Of a stretch of DNA of 64,000 nucleotides, positions 11,456 to 20,275 are shown in pieces; positions within the stretch are counted from its first letter, which is position 1, and each line of letters begins with the position of its first letter. This stretch comes from an uncultured Bacteroidota bacterium. GTDB lineage: Bacteria > Bacteroidota > Bacteroidia > Bacteroidales > F082. Below the pieces are notes generated by a model that saw only the letters and a program-made list of their open reading frames with translations, ran no database searches and was not told where the DNA came from. A program made the position numbers and the translations under genes. The stretch covers positions 1 to 64,000 of the forward strand of contig CALDOI010000049.1 of the NCBI GenBank assembly GCA_937912115.1, read 5' to 3'.

Positions 11456-14400
11456 ATGAAAATAATTTTTACGATTTGTTTAGCAGTTATTACTGCAACA
11501 TTAAGTGCACAGGTAATTGGTGATACAATAGTTATCTCAACTTTTAACTATTCACAAACCTCAGGAAGTGGTAATCGAGATACATTAATTGCCTTTCCTG
11601 ATGATCCTACTCAATCTTATGAGAAGATTATTATGCTGTATAATATGCGATGTAAAGATGGATTAATATCCATACCCGGAAATACTAACAGAGGTTGTGG
11701 TGAGTGGGACTATTCATGCAATACATATATAATCGACTCGTCAAGGGTTGATTCAGTACTTAGCTATACCAGCTCGCATACAATATCCGCATTTTCAGGT
11801 TCATCATTTGATTATCTTGAAACACCCTTGGTCGACTATTATCAATATCGTCAAAAGGAAGTCCAAATAAATAATACCATAAGTGAAACATTATCCACAG
11901 TTGGATCTGGCAATTTACCCCTATCCCATACATTGGCAACCGATAATAACTCAGGAAAATCACAATATTTATACTTGCAATCTGAATTATCATCAAGTGG
12001 AATTATTGCAGGAGGCATAGAAGGTATCCTGTTAAATGTAATTGGCACTAATGCCAACGCCAACTACTTACGTGTTAAAATTAAACACACCGACAAAACA
12101 AATTTAGACGGTAACAACCCTGATAATGATGATTTTACTGAAGTTTATTTTCATGACTACCCATTGGTTAACGGGTTGAATAGAATTCAATTTTATTCTC
12201 CATTTATGTGGAACGGAATCTCAAATATCCTGATAGAATTTTCATTTACAAACAACATAATGAATAATGCACTTAATATTGAAGGTGAAAATACAGGCAT
12301 AGTTTCGGGTATTTATGCTGTAAATGGTTATTGCCTAAATTCTGTGAATGGTAAAATTGACATACCAACTGCCCCTTTCTCAAGCATATCTGATGAAATA
12401 ACAATTTCATTCTGGTGTTATGGAAACGAGGCGGTTCAACCAATTCATAACAGTATACTTCATGGTGTTGACAATAACAATAACCGACAAATAAACCTCC
12501 ATTTACCATGGGGAAACTCAAGCATTTATTATGATTGTGGAAATGATGGAACAGGTTATGACAGAATCGATAAGGCCGCCACTCCTGATGAGATTAAAGG
12601 AAGTTGGAGTCATTGGGCAATCACAAAGAATGCAACAACCGGCGACATGAAAATTTATCATGATGGCGAATTATGGCATTCAGGTACAGGCAAAACCAGA
12701 CTTATTGACATTCAGGAATTTATTATCGCAACAAGTGGAACTGCCGATCGCTCATACTATGGAAAATTTGATGAGTTTAGAATTTGGGATGTTGAACTTA
12801 ATCAGGAGACCATTCAAAACTGGATGTATAAACCTGTTGTTTCGTCTCACCCAAATTACAGTAACATGGTGGCATACTACAATATGGATGAAGGTAGCGG
12901 AAATACTGTGGCTGATGTAACTCCCAATGCTGAGATTGGGACAATATCTGATTTTCTATATTGGTTGTACGAGCGTGGTAATAGCCTGAAACGTGGATTT
13001 ATGGAAACAAATGAAAGGCCTAACATTACTTTTGCACAAGGTGAATACACCCTTACAATTACTGATCAGATTGTTACCGATTCTATTTTATTAACACCGA
13101 ATATTGTAAGAGAATATGAGATTATTCCCAGATATGGAACCATGTTGCACGATAGCATTAATCAAGTTTCAGTAGTTGAACTCTGGGAAGCTCAATATCA
13201 ACACATCTATAACCCGGAAGGAGTTGCCATCGATTCAACATTTGCTACAGCAACCGGAACCATTGAAATAACCGAACTAACTTATTATACCAGATATCCA
13301 TCTCAAAATGAAATAATGTCGTTTGTAACACCTTATGGAATTTATCTTGATCTGGGAATGGAAGGAGAAACATGGGGATTCGATGTAACCGATTATGCAC
13401 CAATCCTCAAAGGATCGAAACGCATGGTAATTGGCAGGGGTGGACAGCGTCAGGAAGATATGGATATCAAATTTCTATTTATACTTGGAACACCACCACA
13501 TGATGTATTGGATATTAATCAAATATGGAGACCTGACTATATGGGTTACCAAAGTATAATCGACAATAGATCTTTCGAGCCCCGTAATTTCTTTTTCAAT
13601 CCTGATGGTGATATGTTCAAGCTTCGCTCGGTTATAACGGGTCATGGTCAACAGGGAGAATTCCAGGGACGATACCATAATTTCAATATTAACGAAGGTG
13701 ATATTGAATACGAATGGAAAGTTTGGACCGAGTGCGCCGAGAATGCTATTTACCCCCAGGGAGGAACCTGGATTTATGATAGAGCAGGATGGTGTCCGGG
13801 TGCCCCAAGTACTTTATATGAATGGGATATTACCGAGCATGTTACAGCCGGACAAAGTCACATTATCGACTACGGACTCGATTATGCAAGCGGAACATCA
13901 AACTACATTGTAAATAATCAACTAGTTACTTACGGTGAGCCTAATTTTAATTTGGATGCTGCAATTGTAAAAATATTAAAACCAAATAGTGATGAGGCAA
14001 GTGTAAAGCGGTTTAACCCTGCTTGCTCATATCCTGAAATAGTAATTCAAAATACCGGTTCAACAACGATTACTAAGTTGGAAATTGAATACTTTGTAGA
14101 TGGTGGTGAAACAGATACTCACACATGGAATGGGTCATTGGATTTCCTTCAGAAAGATACCATTATACTTCCCATTGATGACCTTACTTTTTGGATTAGT
14201 GGATCGAACATATTTACTGCCAGCATAATGAAAGCCAATGAGCTGGAAGACGATTATGAATATAATAACACATATTCCACATCCTTCGAAGACATTCATG
14301 TTTATCAGGAAGGAAACACCTATACGGTACAATTAAAGACCAATAATTTTGGATATCAAACTTCGTACACACTTAAAAATGGTGCTGGAACACAGTTATA

Positions 14401-14908
14401 TGAACGTCATAACTGTGATGACAATACAATATATGAAGATGAATTTTACCTATTGCCCGGTTGCTATGAATTGCAAATTGATGACACTGGAGATAACGGT
14501 TTAGAATTTTGGGCACAACCAAATCAGGGTGTGGGATATTTTAAGATACTCAATGCCGATGGAATTCCTCTTTATACATTTGAGCCTGACTTTGGTGGCT
14601 TCGCTAGTTTTGAGTTTGGAATAGGTAATATTACTGAAATTGATGAAGTTAACAATCCATTTAATTACAGTGTTTATCCTAACCCCGTAATGGATGAATT
14701 AAATATTAACATCCATGGCAGTGGAGATGAAGTAGTAGTTGCTAAACTTACAAATTTGGCAAGTGCTGTTATTACTACAATAAAATGGAATGCTGTTACT
14801 AAAGAAACTGCTACTACAATTGATATGAAAAGTTTGCCTGCAGGAGTATATTTCTTAGCGATTAAATATGGAAATCATACCAGGACAGAAAAAGTGATTA
14901 AGTATTAG
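11456..14908 (+). CDS. Secreted PNGase-F-like protein with LamG insert and T9SS sorting domain
   Basis: The protein has 1150 residues. In order: a signal peptide (1-19); a PNGase F N-terminal-like region with GCGEWDY at 80-86; a LamG/concanavalin-like domain at about 285-470 (SISDEITISFWCYG ... KFDEFRIWDVEL); a PNGase F C-terminal-like region at about 520-800 containing PQGGTWIYDRAGWCPG (near 770); beta-rich domains; and a type IX secretion sorting domain at about 1066-1150 (YSVYPNPV ... LPAGVYFLAI). PNGase F releases N-linked glycans from asparagine. The motifs support that family, but catalytic residues were not verified. T9SS cargo are exported and anchored or released outside the cell. 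It has its own promoter and no operon partner. Confidence 0.85.
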   Translation: MKIIFTICLAVITATLSAQVIGDTIVISTFNYSQTSGSGNRDTLIAFPDDPTQSYEKIIMLYNMRCKDGLISIPGNTNRGCGEWDYSCNTYIIDSSRVDSVLSYTSSHTISAFSGSSFDYLETPLVDYYQYRQKEVQINNTISETLSTVGSGNLPLSHTLATDNNSGKSQYLYLQSELSSSGIIAGGIEGILLNVIGTNANANYLRVKIKHTDKTNLDGNNPDNDDFTEVYFHDYPLVNGLNRIQFYSPFMWNGISNILIEFSFTNNIMNNALNIEGENTGIVSGIYAVNGYCLNSVNGKIDIPTAPFSSISDEITISFWCYGNEAVQPIHNSILHGVDNNNNRQINLHLPWGNSSIYYDCGNDGTGYDRIDKAATPDEIKGSWSHWAITKNATTGDMKIYHDGELWHSGTGKTRLIDIQEFIIATSGTADRSYYGKFDEFRIWDVELNQETIQNWMYKPVVSSHPNYSNMVAYYNMDEGSGNTVADVTPNAEIGTISDFLYWLYERGNSLKRGFMETNERPNITFAQGEYTLTITDQIVTDSILLTPNIVREYEIIPRYGTMLHDSINQVSVVELWEAQYQHIYNPEGVAIDSTFATATGTIEITELTYYTRYPSQNEIMSFVTPYGIYLDLGMEGETWGFDVTDYAPILKGSKRMVIGRGGQRQEDMDIKFLFILGTPPHDVLDINQIWRPDYMGYQSIIDNRSFEPRNFFFNPDGDMFKLRSVITGHGQQGEFQGRYHNFNINEGDIEYEWKVWTECAENAIYPQGGTWIYDRAGWCPGAPSTLYEWDITEHVTAGQSHIIDYGLDYASGTSNYIVNNQLVTYGEPNFNLDAAIVKILKPNSDEASVKRFNPACSYPEIVIQNTGSTTITKLEIEYFVDGGETDTHTWNGSLDFLQKDTIILPIDDLTFWISGSNIFTASIMKANELEDDYEYNNTYSTSFEDIHVYQEGNTYTVQLKTNNFGYQTSYTLKNGAGTQLYERHNCDDNTIYEDEFYLLPGCYELQIDDTGDNGLEFWAQPNQGVGYFKILNADGIPLYTFEPDFGGFASFEFGIGNITEIDEVNNPFNYSVYPNPVMDELNINIHGSGDEVVVAKLTNLASAVITTIKWNAVTKETATTIDMKSLPAGVYFLAIKYGNHTRTEKVIKY

Positions 14909-14922
14909 TTTCTATTATATCC

Positions 14923-14930
14923 TATATTTG
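14923..14930 (+). promoter_or_regulatory. -7 box upstream of the radical SAM / cysteate synthase cluster
   Basis: TATATTTG matches TAnnTTTG. Transcription would begin near 14936, ruling out the in-frame ATG at 14932 and supporting the start at 14953. Confidence 0.55.
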
Positions 14931-14952
14931 CATGCACGAATTTGCAAATAAC

Positions 14953-16365
14953 ATGGCAATACCAAAAAAAAAATTACTACTAATAAATCCTCTAAACTCT
15001 AGTACCAAAGGACTAATAATACACAAACAAGTAATTTACCCGCCTTTGGGTCTTGGCATAATTGCAACTCTAACTCCCGATAATTGGGAAGTGGAATTGC
15101 TTGATGAGAATTTTGATGAATTTGAATATCGCAAAGCTGATCTGGTAGCATTAACCGCTCTTACATCCAGTGTAACAAGAGCATACGAAATAGCAGCGAC
15201 ATATCGTGAAAAGGGAATACCCACAGTACTTGGTGGAATTCATGCTTCGATGATGCCTGAAGAGGCAAAGAACCTTGTTGACACTGTTGTTATTGGTGAA
15301 GTAGAAAGTGTGTGGAAATCACTAATTGAAGACTTTGAAAAAGGGGAGTTAAAAAAACAGTATATGGGCAAATTATTGTCGATGGAAAATGCTGTCCGTC
15401 CCACAAGAAGTCTGTTCCATAAAGATTACAATTTTGCCAGTGTACAAACAACCCGTGGTTGCCCAATGAGTTGTGATTTTTGTTCAGTACACACTTTTAA
15501 TGGCAATTGCTATCGACTTCGACCTATTGATGAAGTTCTGGATGAGCTTGAAACAATAGAACACAACATGGTTTATTTTGTTGATGATAACCTAATTGGC
15601 TATGGTAAAAAATCACAGCAAAGAGCCATTGAATTATTTAAAGGAATTATTGATCGTGGAATAAAAATTGAATGGTTCTGTTCAGCATCCATGAACTTTG
15701 CTGACAATGAAGAAGTATTGGAATATGCATCCAAAAGTGGCTGCAGAATGGTGCTTCTTGGCATTGAATCGGAGCGTATTGACCAGCTGCAAGACATGAA
15801 TAAAAAGCTAAATGCGAAAATGGGCATCGATAGCTACGACAAGGTATTTAGTACAATACACAAATATGGTATTGCAGTACTAGGTGCTTTTATTTATGGT
15901 TTACCTACTGACACTCCTGAAACGATGGCAGCACGTACCGAGTATATAAATAATGCTTCGATAGATGCTGTACAGGCAACCATATTAACGCCACTTCCGG
16001 GAACGGGTTTATTTAATCGTATGATTGAAGACAACAAAATTACACTCAATAATTACCCCGAAGATTGGCAACATTATCATTTTGGCAAAGTAGTTTTTAA
16101 ACATGAACTGATGGATCATGATACCATTAGTAATGAAATTGCATTAAACTGGGATAAGCTTTATAACGAAAATACACTAAAAAAGAAATTCATCCGAACT
16201 CTAAAACAAACAAAAAGCCCAATTGCAGGTATCTGGTCCTATGGATCAAATCTTCAATATTATAATCTGGTTTTTGAACATGATGATAGTAGGCCACATC
16301 TTGATTTAGTCGATATTTTTGGATTAAAGGAAATTGGCGAGAACCCCTTTATCAAGCAACAATAG
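14953..16365 (+). CDS. Cobalamin-binding-type radical SAM protein (copy 1)
   Basis: The protein has 470 residues. An N-terminal B12-binding-like Rossmann domain (about 1-140, LLLINPL, ELLDENFD, VLGGIHASMMP, GEVESVW) precedes a radical SAM barrel with RGCPMSCDFCSVHTF (CxxxCxxC near 169-176) and FVDDNLIG. No DxHxxG cobalamin-ligating motif is visible, as in several class members that bind base-off cobalamin differently or have lost it. The C-terminal extension runs to residue 470. The chemistry (methylation, ring or C-C bond formation) is unknown. It is followed 4 nt later by a paralogue and then a cysteate synthase. Confidence 0.9.
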   Translation: MAIPKKKLLLINPLNSSTKGLIIHKQVIYPPLGLGIIATLTPDNWEVELLDENFDEFEYRKADLVALTALTSSVTRAYEIAATYREKGIPTVLGGIHASMMPEEAKNLVDTVVIGEVESVWKSLIEDFEKGELKKQYMGKLLSMENAVRPTRSLFHKDYNFASVQTTRGCPMSCDFCSVHTFNGNCYRLRPIDEVLDELETIEHNMVYFVDDNLIGYGKKSQQRAIELFKGIIDRGIKIEWFCSASMNFADNEEVLEYASKSGCRMVLLGIESERIDQLQDMNKKLNAKMGIDSYDKVFSTIHKYGIAVLGAFIYGLPTDTPETMAARTEYINNASIDAVQATILTPLPGTGLFNRMIEDNKITLNNYPEDWQHYHFGKVVFKHELMDHDTISNEIALNWDKLYNENTLKKKFIRTLKQTKSPIAGIWSYGSNLQYYNLVFEHDDSRPHLDLVDIFGLKEIGENPFIKQQ

Positions 16366-16369
16366 CAAC

Positions 16370-17731
16370 ATGTCGGCAAAGAAACATAAGCTACTGCTCA
16401 TCAACCCTCTTAGCACAAAACGATCTGGTTTAATTTTGGATCAAAAATCCATTTATCCACCAATGAGCCTGGCTATTATAGCTGCATTAACACCTGATAA
16501 CTGGGATATAGAACTACTCGATGAAAACTTTGACAGATTTCAGTATAAAGTAGCTGACCTTGTTGGCCTAACGGCATTAACCTCGCAGGTTACACGTGCT
16601 TATGAAATTGCCCAAATCTACAAAAAGAAAAATATCCCGACGGTTATCGGAGGAATTCATGCTTCTGTAATGCCCCAGGAAGCAAAGAAGTTTGCTAATA
16701 CAGTAGTTATTGGTGAAGCTGAAAGCGTTTGGAAAGATGTTATAACTGACTTTGAAAATAACAGGCTAAAGGAAATCTATAATGGAAACCTGCAACCTAT
16801 GGTAAACTCTCCCCAACCACGCATCGACCTTTATAATCCGGGTTATGCATTTGGGAGCGTTCAAACCACGAGAGGATGCCCGATGAGTTGTGATTTTTGT
16901 TCTGTCCATACTTTTAACGGAAAGCAATACCGTCCGCGCGAAGTAGTAGATGTTGTTGACGAATTTGAAAAGATCCCTCAGGATAAAGTCTATTTTGTGG
17001 ACGATAATTTTATCGGTTATTCAAAAAAATCAACCGAAAGAGTAAAAGATATATGTAAAGAAATTATCCGGAGGGGCATTAAAAAAGACTGGTTTTGTGC
17101 TGCTTCAATGAATATTGCCGACCATGATGAAGTATTACAACTGGCAGCCGAAGCGGGGTGCAGGATGATATTTCTGGGTATCGAATCGGAACTAATCGAT
17201 CAGCTTGAATCGGCAAATAAAAAAATGAACATTAAAATCGGTATTGATAACTTCTCAAAGGTTTACGATAAAATCCATAAGTATGGTATTGCAGTACTTG
17301 GTGCATTTATCTACGGACTCGATACAGATACCCCGGAAACAATAGAAAACAGGACGAAATATATTATTGATTCTGATATAGATGCGATGCAGGCAACAAT
17401 ACTCACACCTTTGCCGGGAACCCCTCTGTTCGACCGTATGTTAGCGGAAGGGAGGTTGATTTATAATGATTTCCCAAAGGATTGGTCACGTTACGATTTT
17501 GTTGAAGTTGTTTTTAATCCAAAGCTAATGTCAGCTGAGGTATTAACAAGCTCAATTGATAAGGCATGGAAAATGCTTTATGATAATAAAAGGTTAAAAA
17601 GGAAATTCATAAACGCATTAAAATCAACCAGAAATCCTGTTTCAGCATCGTGGTCTTACAACTCAAACCTTCATTACCATAATATAGTATTTGAAAAGCA
17701 AAGCAACAAGATTAATTTTGAAGATACCTAA
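16370..17731 (+). CDS. Cobalamin-binding-type radical SAM protein (copy 2, paralogue)
   Basis: The protein has 453 residues and aligns along its whole length with the preceding gene: the same LLLINPL start, ELLDENFD, IGGIHASVMPQEA, RGCPMSCDFCSVHTFNGK (CxxxCxxC near 169-176), GAFIYGL and LTPLPGTPLFDRM. The ATG at 16370 is chosen; the frame reaches back only to a TTG inside copy 1. The 4-nt spacing implies one mRNA with copy 1 and the cysteate synthase, 15 nt downstream. Tandem duplication followed by divergence suggests two related steps of one pathway. The reaction is unknown. Confidence 0.9.
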   Translation: MSAKKHKLLLINPLSTKRSGLILDQKSIYPPMSLAIIAALTPDNWDIELLDENFDRFQYKVADLVGLTALTSQVTRAYEIAQIYKKKNIPTVIGGIHASVMPQEAKKFANTVVIGEAESVWKDVITDFENNRLKEIYNGNLQPMVNSPQPRIDLYNPGYAFGSVQTTRGCPMSCDFCSVHTFNGKQYRPREVVDVVDEFEKIPQDKVYFVDDNFIGYSKKSTERVKDICKEIIRRGIKKDWFCAASMNIADHDEVLQLAAEAGCRMIFLGIESELIDQLESANKKMNIKIGIDNFSKVYDKIHKYGIAVLGAFIYGLDTDTPETIENRTKYIIDSDIDAMQATILTPLPGTPLFDRMLAEGRLIYNDFPKDWSRYDFVEVVFNPKLMSAEVLTSSIDKAWKMLYDNKRLKRKFINALKSTRNPVSASWSYNSNLHYHNIVFEKQSNKINFEDT

Positions 17732-17746
17732 AAAGATTTAAATATT

Positions 17747-19042
17747 ATGAGCAGTTCATTTTCCAGAACAGAATACAAATTAATGTCGGTTGAAACTGGG
17801 GCAACTTTTAACGACAAAGGCTGGACTCTCGATGCACCGGGTAAATCCAAACCATCATTGATTAGAGCAATATATAATGATAAGCAACTAATTCAAAAAG
17901 ATGATTCGTTAGGAATTTACAAGTTTGCCGACTGGTTGCCAATCCACAAAATGCTTAATGGATCATATGCACCCCTTACCTACAAAAGTGCAGGATTAGC
18001 TGGGAAATTGGGGCTTTCAAATCTATACATAACCTTTAGTGGATATTGGCCCGAACGTGGTATTGAAATGAAAACCTGCTCGTTTAAAGAAACTGAAGCA
18101 TATAGTGTTTGTGCACGAATGGATAGCGAAGAGAAGAAGATCCTTGTTGTAGCCAGTGCAGGAAATACGGCACGTGCTTTCGCCCAGGTATGCTCCGACA
18201 ATAATATAAATCTGCTATTAAGTGTTCCTGAGGATAATTTGAATGCCCTTTGGTTTGATGCCCCACTTAACGATTGTGTTAAACTAATTGCCAGTAAAAG
18301 TGGAGGCGACTATTTCGATGCGATTCATCTATCAAATATAGTATGCGAGCTTGATAATTATTTTGCAGAAGGTGGGGCTAAAAATGTTGCACGCCGTGAT
18401 GGCATGGGAACAACAATGCTATCCGCAACTACATCAATTGGAGAGATTCCTGAATACTATTTTCAGGCTATCGGCAGTGGTACCGGTGCAATAGCGGCAT
18501 GGGAAGCAAATATGAGATTAATTGAGGACGGCAGATTTGGAAATCGTAAAATGAAACTCATGGTTAGCCAAAATTACCCGTTCCACCCAATTTATGATGC
18601 ATGGAAAGCTGACTCAAGATCATTACTTCCATTTGATGATTTAGAGGCCCGAAAACAGGTTGAAATAATTGATGCAAAAGTATTATCAAACAGAAAGCCT
18701 CCTTATTCAATTACCGGTGGTTTATTTGATGCAATGAAAGATGCCGGTGGTGATGTATTACTAGCAAACAATAAAGAAGCAAGAGAAGCTGCACAGCTAT
18801 TCCTCCAAACAGAAGGTATTGATATCCATCCTGCGGCAGCAGTGGCAACAGCAACACTAATTGATGCTGTAAAGAATAGCACTATTGCATCAAACAGTTT
18901 GATAATGCTAAATATTACCGGTGGAGGTGAAAAGAGATTTGAAAAAGAACACAAGCTACACTATTTGAAACCACTACTTGTATTTGATGTTAATCCTGAT
19001 GAGGATGAAGTAAAAGAGCATGTAGGAAAACTGAAATGGTAG
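17747..19042 (+). CDS. Cysteate synthase (PLP-dependent, threonine-synthase fold)
   Basis: The protein has 431 residues and closely resembles archaeal cysteate synthase: TYKSAGLAGKLGLSNLYI, FSGYWPERG, the PLP lysine in KTCSFKE, ASAGNTARAFAQV, GGAKNVARRDGMGT, QAIGSGTGAIAAWEA and the late NITGGGEKRF. It replaces the phosphate of O-phosphoserine with sulfite to give L-cysteate. In methanogens this feeds coenzyme M; in Bacteroidota cysteate is the headgroup precursor of sulfonolipids (capnines), the likely role here. It is the third gene of the radical SAM operon. It lacks the N-terminal zinc ribbon of the archaeal enzyme, as far as I can see. Confidence 0.88.
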   Translation: MSSSFSRTEYKLMSVETGATFNDKGWTLDAPGKSKPSLIRAIYNDKQLIQKDDSLGIYKFADWLPIHKMLNGSYAPLTYKSAGLAGKLGLSNLYITFSGYWPERGIEMKTCSFKETEAYSVCARMDSEEKKILVVASAGNTARAFAQVCSDNNINLLLSVPEDNLNALWFDAPLNDCVKLIASKSGGDYFDAIHLSNIVCELDNYFAEGGAKNVARRDGMGTTMLSATTSIGEIPEYYFQAIGSGTGAIAAWEANMRLIEDGRFGNRKMKLMVSQNYPFHPIYDAWKADSRSLLPFDDLEARKQVEIIDAKVLSNRKPPYSITGGLFDAMKDAGGDVLLANNKEAREAAQLFLQTEGIDIHPAAAVATATLIDAVKNSTIASNSLIMLNITGGGEKRFEKEHKLHYLKPLLVFDVNPDEDEVKEHVGKLKW

Positions 19043-19063: not shown

Positions 19064-20275
19064 TTATGAAGAACTCTGCTTTTCCTTAAAAAATTGTAGC
19101 CATCTATCGGCCATAGCCAGTGGTAACAGTAACGACCTTACCGGATGTTTGATAATTTCTTTTGATTTGGGTAATAAGGAAATCATTTCAGGCAACGCAC
19201 TAAATGCCAGTCCTATTGACTGATAAAACTTTCCCATACCTACTTTCATCAAAAATAATTTTACTTTGCTATTTCTTAATTCAACACTAATGGCAGAAAA
19301 ACCAACAACCACAAACAAAGCTCTTACCATCATTTCAATGCCGGCATACATACCTTCCAACTGAAATAGCACAACCTCATCTTTATCATTTTTCCAAAAT
19401 AATGCTGACAGGGCAACAATCAATAACAACTGAACCCAAAAAACAGGCTTTCGAAGTCTGCGTAAGGCTAAACGATAAATGTATCCAATTACAAAAATAT
19501 AGGTTGACACAAATAAATAACCATAGTTCCCATCACTTACATTTAGCAAAAACAGGCCTATGGGAATTGCAATAATGTGCACAAAAAGCATTGGAATTGA
19601 TGTATGTTGGTTGTCTCCTATTTTAAAAAAATCGTTTTTTGGAATGTGGTTTTCCTTGATGCCAACACCACTGTATTCTTGACTGATTACAACTGCTTTT
19701 CGTCCGGCATAATAACCCAAAGTAGCAGCTATTGTGCCCATTAATGTATAAAACACAAGTAAAACCGCAAGAACCTGAACAGGTTCAGCCTCAGCAATTC
19801 TTAATTGTTTTAAACCAAAATTTATGACGTTAATATAAACCTGTATCAAATCGTAACCGTAAAAAACAATCATGCTGAATATCTTATAAAATAAAGCACT
19901 CGACACACTAAAAATGCCGGCAATCAGATATCCAATAAAATTACGCCCCAAGATCAAGATAACAAGTTCAATTAGTATTGCTTCTAGCATTATTCCCATC
20001 ATAGGACCCAAAATTATTGCTGACGGGGATACCGATTTCATAATTGCAGTAATTAATCCAGCCCTGATAATTAGCCCCCTTTGAGGCCATAGTTGATAAT
20101 AACCAATAAGCAATATAGTGCCAAAAAATGCAAGGGTGGATCCTGCCATTGGCAATCGGGCATTATGTAAAAAGCTACCTATTATTATTTCTAAAGATGC
20201 CCATAATCCGCCAACAACAGCAGCTTTAAGCCACAGGTCGCTTTCCTTATTATTTTGTGATTTGGCCGATTCCAT
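19064..20275 (-). CDS. ECF-transporter-like polytopic membrane protein
   Basis: The protein has 403 residues and about ten hydrophobic helices. The N-terminal half (LWASLEIIIGSFLHNARLPMAG ... AIILGPMMGIMLEAILIEL) resembles ECF substrate-binding S-components. The C-terminal half (RNSKVKLFLMKVGMGKFYQSIGLAFSALPEMI) is reminiscent of EcfT coupling proteins. A fused S-T protein is inferred. No ATPase partner lies in the window. The start codon overlaps the stop of mobA by 1 nt, so translation is probably coupled, which suggests a molybdenum- or cofactor-related substrate. This is weaker than a family call. Confidence 0.6.
   Translation of the reverse strand: MESAKSQNNKESDLWLKAAVVGGLWASLEIIIGSFLHNARLPMAGSTLAFFGTILLIGYYQLWPQRGLIIRAGLITAIMKSVSPSAIILGPMMGIMLEAILIELVILILGRNFIGYLIAGIFSVSSALFYKIFSMIVFYGYDLIQVYINVINFGLKQLRIAEAEPVQVLAVLLVFYTLMGTIAATLGYYAGRKAVVISQEYSGVGIKENHIPKNDFFKIGDNQHTSIPMLFVHIIAIPIGLFLLNVSDGNYGYLFVSTYIFVIGYIYRLALRRLRKPVFWVQLLLIVALSALFWKNDKDEVVLFQLEGMYAGIEMMVRALFVVVGFSAISVELRNSKVKLFLMKVGMGKFYQSIGLAFSALPEMISLLPKSKEIIKHPVRSLLLPLAMADRWLQFFKEKQSSS

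Follow-up and report, generated by a model that had tools for sequence, protein, structure and literature searches.

The window, by which we mean the whole 64,000-nucleotide stretch of DNA analyzed here, comes from contig C49 of a 3.9-Mb draft genome and carries three genes on the + strand (14932/14953–16365, 16370–17731, and 17747–19042) that are separated by gaps of 4 and 15 nt, a spacing and common strand already reported in the initial annotation and read again in the sequence. The first two genes encode members of one radical SAM family (RS; here RS-A and RS-B), and the third encodes a predicted cysteate synthase (CS). The nearest named relatives of the genome are uncultured Bacteroidota, two of which are labeled Lentimicrobiaceae. 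The features of the locus are as follows:

14923..14930, + strand: TATATTTG, Bacteroidota-type promoter-like box (TAnnTTTG) of RS-A, upstream of ATG 14953
14953..16365, + strand: RS-A, B12-domain radical SAM protein, 470 aa from ATG 14953 (477 aa from ATG 14932)
15460..15483, + strand: CxxxCxxC radical SAM cluster motif of RS-A (C177, C181, C184), read in the DNA
16370..17731, + strand: RS-B, second B12-domain radical SAM protein, 453 aa, with Pfam domains
17713..17720, + strand: TAATTTTG, possible own promoter box of CS, inside RS-B, at position −34
17747..19042, + strand: cysteate synthase (CS), archaeal type, TIGR03844, 431 aa

The start of RS-A is better placed at ATG 14953, since orthologues start at the equivalent codon. 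Both radical SAM proteins contain the Pfam Radical_SAM and B12-binding domains above the gathering scores: RS-A reaches 56.8 bits for Radical_SAM (PF04055), and the N-terminal B12-binding Rossmann domain (PF02310, cut-off 32.1) scores 51.9 bits in RS-A and 49.4 bits in RS-B. With 59% identity between them, they are the paralogous B12-type radical SAM pair that had been annotated, and the CxxxCxxC motif is invariant in 28 of 28 aligned family members (alignment A1, in which one row, the copy on contig C222, is short at the N terminus). The third product scores 480.5 bits against the NCBIfam model cysteate_syn (TIGR03844, cut-off 324.9), with PDB entry 9k3c (“Cysteate synthase,” 591 bits) as its best PDB match; judged by its sequence, it is an archaeal-type cysteate synthase, in agreement with the initial annotation, and is predicted to form cysteate from phosphoserine and sulfite.

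Among the matches listed for the AlphaFold model of RS-A (pLDDT 92.5), the closest fold is that of AprD4 (PDB 6fd2; Z 32.4, rmsd 2.6, 386 residues), followed by MgmA (Z 26.9), CysS (26.1), OxsB (25.5), and TsrM (25.4). The RS proteins share with TsrM, OxsB, TokK, CysS, and MgmA the N-terminal Rossmann B12-type domain, the barrel, and the CxxxCxxC motif, and RS-A matches the fold of these enzymes over most of its length (Z 18 to 27), but the identity is 13 to 21% and the RS proteins are shorter (453 to 477 aa). By domain and fold, RS-A and RS-B thus appear to be of the class-1 B12 radical SAM type and may use cobalamin. AprD4, which to our knowledge binds no cobalamin, has the closest fold to RS-A and yet is only 19% identical to it, and the neighbors of RS genes described below include acyl-carrier and ketosynthase genes. 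The AprD4 entry holds the sugar-like paromamine; in those of CysS and TokK, also among the folds listed, the substrate is bound to pantetheine, as would suit RS enzymes that act on an ACP-bound substrate. The B12 domain alone gave nothing significant against PDB sequences (best related entry 4q37, E 0.41), and no Tes/GrsA-like lipid radical SAM protein was present among the PDB sequence matches or the 50 fold matches listed. No known NCBIfam equivalog was passed: the best was HpnJ (102 to 109 of 577.6 bits), RS-A fell below the cut-offs of BchE (88.6 of 481.35 bits), TIGR04072 (89.7 of 360), and AprD4 (NF033070; 53.7 of 500), and the RS proteins lay far below the curated cut-offs of PhpK and HpnR.

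The initial annotation had placed all three genes in one transcription unit. The strand and spacing are as annotated, but the promoter of RS-A may not be the only one: of 10 CS loci that are linked to RS, 8 have a separate promoter-like box for CS, at −29 to −34. The box, TAnnTTTG, which we take to be the Bacteroidota promoter motif, has 123 matches in the window versus 94.5 expected by chance. It lies 26 to 30 nt 5′ of the ATG in all 10 RS-A loci examined, and its presence there despite differing flanks makes it very likely that RS-A has its own promoter. As for CS, no exact box was found in the nearest relative (L053), the called CS start lies inside the box in L061, and 12 of the 15 CS loci without an adjoining RS gene carry a box between −19 and −43. 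Read-through into CS and a separate CS start are both possible with the layout of the window. An E. coli-type promoter and terminator scan, which performed at chance level, found no terminator-like site between the genes on the + strand.

Elsewhere in the genome, contig C67 encodes a SulA-type cysteate acyltransferase, which scores 622 bits to 7u7h and 603 to 28eh versus 253 bits to the serine palmitoyltransferase 3a2b. Since CS and SulA are both present, sulfonolipid synthesis is likely, as had been supposed at the outset. The combination is like that of the SulA (capnine) pathway with archaeal-type CS: the available portions of PMC10191378 describe a relative of archaeal cysteate synthase in use in Alistipes and Odoribacter, and SulA as the acyltransferase of A. 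finegoldii. The difference is that the available portions of PMC10191378 and PMC9304779 mention no radical SAM step (the latter paper has 0 occurrences of the word “radical”), whereas here CS adjoins RS in two genera. In the available portion of PMC11129491, the Lentimicrobiales strains S6 and L6 appear without a lipid profile. A co-occurrence of RS with the cysteate acyltransferase, to which the initial annotation had looked, did not emerge. Close SulA proteins (at least 58% identity) were found in 15 of 18 genomes with RS but not CS, in 11 of 12 with KASIII (a FabH-like ketosynthase, see below) but neither RS nor CS, and in 9 of 9 controls; within these 39 chosen genomes, which cover 12 of the 16 in the second category, SulA is no commoner with RS than without it, so that sulfonolipid capacity does not follow RS.

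We then turned to the distribution of RS and CS across genomes. A phylum-wide sample proved too sparse (RS in 1 and CS in 9 of 395 genomes), and an order sample was used instead; it comprises 257 genomes, with RS in 24, KASIII (E ≤ 1e-90) in 36, and CS (E ≤ 1e-60) in 70, one of these CS matches (G619) being a fragment below the cut-off. A sample of the window's own family comprises 119 genomes, with RS (E ≤ 1e-90) in 30 and CS (over the cut-off) in 91. The genomes are drafts with parts missing, and absences should be read with caution. Genera g1, to which the window's genome belongs, and g15 have 11 sampled genomes that hold both genes; RS is followed by CS in all 11, and the gene order is accordingly not unique to the window's genome. 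The order is found in all eight g1 genomes and in three of the five RS-containing g15 genomes (in G007 across a contig break); the two other RS-containing g15 genomes gave no CS match. A further 24 genomes (9 in the family sample and 15 in the order sample, besides the window's own) have both genes; the two were adjacent in none of them, with contig ends that could hide a few cases: RS and CS lie on different contigs in 23 and about 60 kb apart in one (G022). The initial annotation had suggested that the pair may carry out steps in the metabolism of cysteate, sulfonolipids, or another sulfonate. This proposal was not supported: RS is often found without CS (10 of the 30 RS-containing genomes of the family sample and 8 of the 24 of the order sample), which largely amounts to the outcome that the initial annotation had named as counting against it. 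Conversely, CS occurs without RS in 71 of 89 RS-free family genomes and in 54 of 233 RS-free order genomes.

Outside g1, RS genes, either alone or arrayed in groups of up to four, have a set of neighbors that recurs from genome to genome and comprises KASIII, an SDR, a GT2, a GNAT, a sulfotransferase, a Wzx-like flippase, an FAAL or other acyl-AMP ligase, a WecE-type aminotransferase, and a PMT/TPR protein. Neighborhoods were read in 45 of 53 RS-containing genomes, with neighbors labeled by BLAST clusters named after representatives scanned in Pfam; the KASIII label spans two types, and the labels of the ligase subtypes and of f35 are coarse. At least two module genes lie within 6 kb of RS in 30 of the 45 genomes, from 12 families. 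The commonest neighbors were GT2 and GNAT (23 genomes each), KASIII (22), SDR (20), and sulfotransferase (16), followed by the flippase (11), ligases other than FAAL (10), FAAL (9), and WecE (7), with an acyl-AMP ligase of either type in 17. CS lies within 3 kb of RS in 10 of the 45, all of them g1 or g15. The 15 genomes without two module genes include eight of g1, the window's among them, in which no module gene was found within 6 kb of RS, and the only module genes noted near RS in G016, G092, and G099 were GT2 and GNAT. An ACP-like ORF lies directly 5′ of KASIII in 42 of 67 KASIII-labeled rows (38 of 62 distinct proteins); these ORFs came from reading the ORF 5′ of KASIII, an over-strict motif search for small ACPs having matched none, and the two checked by Pfam were both over the cut-off. 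This recurrence suggests that the RS family is mainly part of an undescribed pathway for a sulfated lipid or sugar. The ladderane/PUFA-type clusters of Kuenenia and Desulfotalea, as far as the available portion of PMC2649909 describes them, likewise combine several radical SAM genes with CoA ligase, glycosyltransferase, and fatty acid genes in anaerobes. They differ in their FASII set and phytoene-desaturase-like genes, where RS loci have KASIII, GNAT, sulfotransferase, and flippase, and the RS score for TIGR04072 is weak (80 to 90 of 360 bits).

The association with KASIII extends to whole genomes. In the order sample, KASIII (E ≤ 1e-90) is present in 19 of 24 genomes with RS versus 17 of 233 without (p = 1e-14), or in 12 of 15 versus 12 of 103 when collapsed by family (p = 1e-7); this and the other co-occurrence tests ignore phylogeny except for the family collapse, for which the number of families (118) was inferred from their numbering. 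Within the window's family, KASIII of at least 50% identity, a cut picked after inspection, occurs in 16 of 30 RS-containing and 0 of 89 RS-free genomes, and at E ≤ 1e-60 the counts are 18 of 30 and 15 of 89. The 14 RS-containing family genomes without such a 50% match belong to g3, g9, g10, and g11 or are the window's own. KASIII with an adjoining SDR and GT2 is found elsewhere in the genome in seven of the eight g1 genomes. The window's genome carries an AMP ligase that groups with the FAAL cluster and is truncated at a contig end, and a second-type KASIII on contig C191; the first type was not found in its assembly. RS would be accessory to the module, since KASIII is present without RS in the 17 order genomes mentioned above, and the GT2/GNAT core also occurs without RS.

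The same genome holds a third RS family member on contig C222 (55% identity) and a distant one on contig C5 (34%). In a tree of 88 members, RS-A and RS-B fall into separate clades, the C222 copy into another. Copies from other Bacteroidales contigs also fall into the RS-A clade (support 100/100); on two of these contigs (L064 and L066) a second copy adjoins the first and belongs to the clade that holds RS-B (100/93), with its exact position there weak. Because these loci carry both copies side by side, the tandem looks older than the genus. RS relatives at 52 to 55% identity occur in Chloroflexota, Stahlbacteria, WOR-3, and a Methanophagales archaeon.

The reading we prefer, at roughly even odds (about 0.5), is that RS-A and RS-B modify the acyl chain of a sulfated, glycolipid-like product that has not been described so far, while CS belongs to a separate pathway. 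An acyl-AMP ligase, fused to a carrier domain in some genomes, would activate a fatty acid; a stand-alone ACP, KASIII, and the SDR reductase would extend and reduce the chain; and RS-A and RS-B would methylate the ACP- or membrane-bound acyl chain, or form a C–C bond or ring on it. A polyprenyl-phosphate-type GT2, the GNAT, and in places the aminotransferase would add a sugar, sulfotransferases would sulfate the product, and the Wzx-like flippase would export it. CS would be the first enzyme of the SulA (capnine) sulfonolipid pathway and, in a lineage with g1 and g15 among its members, would have come to sit directly 3′ of the RS array, in the place that an acyl-AMP ligase occupies in the relative G022. 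In G022, the order is FAAL, RS-D, RS-B, RS-A, flippase, KASIII, SDR, and GT2, and in G021 CS stands in place of the FAAL, after RS-D, RS-B, and RS-A.

The main competitor for the substrate is the sugar part of the same product, on which RS proteins could act as AprD4-like diol dehydratases, epimerases, or C-methylases of a nucleotide sugar or glycan. The fold of AprD4, with its bound paromamine, stands ahead of the next one listed, GT2 and GNAT lead the list of RS neighbors, a WecE-type aminotransferase is near RS in some genomes, and in g3 and in G016 (g10) GT2 and GNAT lie near RS where a close KASIII was not found. We nonetheless consider this unlikely, given that RS falls far below the AprD4 family cut-off, that acyl-AMP ligases, KASIII, and SDR are also frequent near RS, and that the GT2/GNAT core exists without RS too. 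It is quite improbable that RS-A and RS-B modify cysteate, capnine, or the sulfonolipid chain, with CS as the supply enzyme, even though this would agree with the invariant RS–CS order in g1 and g15 and with two genomes (G001, 77% complete, and G006) in which an RS-A beside CS is the sole RS match. Co-occurrence of RS and CS, by which the initial annotation had proposed to judge the matter, gave a divided answer. In the order sample, CS is present in 16 of 24 genomes with RS versus 54 of 233 without (p = 2.5e-5), in 9 of 15 versus 25 of 103 after collapsing by family (p = 0.011), and, among KASIII-containing genomes, in 14 of 19 with RS versus 1 of 17 without. This order-level association speaks against the preferred acyl reading. 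Within the window's own family, by contrast, there is no excess (20 of 30 versus 71 of 89, p = 0.21), the two genes are together in none of the 24 other genomes that hold both, SulA does not follow RS, and CS mostly has a promoter-like box of its own.

How CS came to lie beside RS is a separate question, which overlaps the acyl and sugar readings alike. We see a chance somewhat short of even that one ancestral rearrangement placed it there and that the adjacency was kept by descent, with no common pathway or regulation. Consistent with this, 15 CS loci from other genera (L144 to L158) have varied neighborhoods without RS, a 403-aa membrane protein and/or mobA lies beyond CS in the g1 and g15 loci, as a single event would leave it, and there is again the separate CS box. 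Against it stand the gap of just 15 nt between RS-B and CS in the window and the strand and order that stayed constant across two genera while other neighbors changed. CS is a lineage-specific neighbor and tells little about the RS substrate.

Radical SAM enzymes make several of the most unusual anaerobe lipids, such as tetraethers, the methyl groups of hopanoids, and perhaps ladderanes. Among the papers listed in a literature search that was short on subscription journals, none was seen to connect the RS genes with CS, with sulfonolipids, or with the cluster. The enzymes belong to a known kind; no name for the RS family, for its arrays, or for the module was met in the literature searched. 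That so deeply paralogous a family goes together with an ACP/KASIII/sulfotransferase module in 12 of the sampled Bacteroidales families points to an unseen lipid or glycolipid, for which candidate genes can now be named. It is tempting to speculate, more tentatively, that anaerobic Bacteroidales share a widespread and undescribed pathway for a sulfated acyl-glycoconjugate, in which KASIII and SDR build a chain on an ACP of its own and arrays of one to four divergent, cobalamin-type RS proteins remodel it at several positions; in g1 and g15, the same conjugate might perhaps also be sulfonated. If true, branched, cyclic, or cross-linked lipids would be made in this way without oxygen.

A single gene that replaces RS in the RS-free KASIII clusters was looked for, and none was found. 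Two such clusters (G611 and G687) contain an MBOAT acyltransferase and a second shared gene, the copies in G687 being recognized by clustering only, and the one in G734 contains a different B12-domain radical SAM protein.

Within the phylum sample, the archaeal-type cysteate synthase (TIGR03844) is rare, being found in 9 of 395 genomes, namely the genome from which the window derives and eight from one family outside the class. One genome of the order sample, G586, displays two cysteate synthase matches, on its contigs C72 and C79, the second of which begins at profile position 49.

In the window, the radical SAM and cysteate synthase genes are flanked by two further genes:

11456-14908, large protein sorted via T9SS, containing a laminin-G-like domain and a PNGase F C-terminal domain
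19064-20275, 403-aa protein

The former ends 23 nt ahead of the open reading frame of the first radical SAM gene, RS-A, and adjoins this gene in only some genomes of the genus g1. The 403-aa protein matched nothing in Pfam or NCBIfam at E<=0.001; it lies near cysteate synthase in genus g15 and at several g1 loci, and not in genomes G001 and G006.

In a Methanophagales archaeon, a single open frame (L069:8079-10172) fuses the radical SAM protein to a biotin protein ligase, flanked by biotin carboxylase and carboxyltransferase genes and with a BioY gene upstream. The third radical SAM copy in three g1 genomes (L033:8501-9871, on contig C222 of the window's own genome, and loci L046 and L047) lacks ATG, GTG or TTG at its expected start, where all three carry CTG at the identical position.

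Contig C191 of the window's own genome (L129:8297-13673) encodes a KASIII of the second type and a PMT/TPR protein, as well as an acyl-AMP ligase that falls in the FAAL cluster and is truncated at the contig end. Two versions of the KASIII cluster without radical SAM genes include an MBOAT acyltransferase and a second common gene (L229:12166-14581; L237:15186-17640, where both genes were assigned by clustering only).
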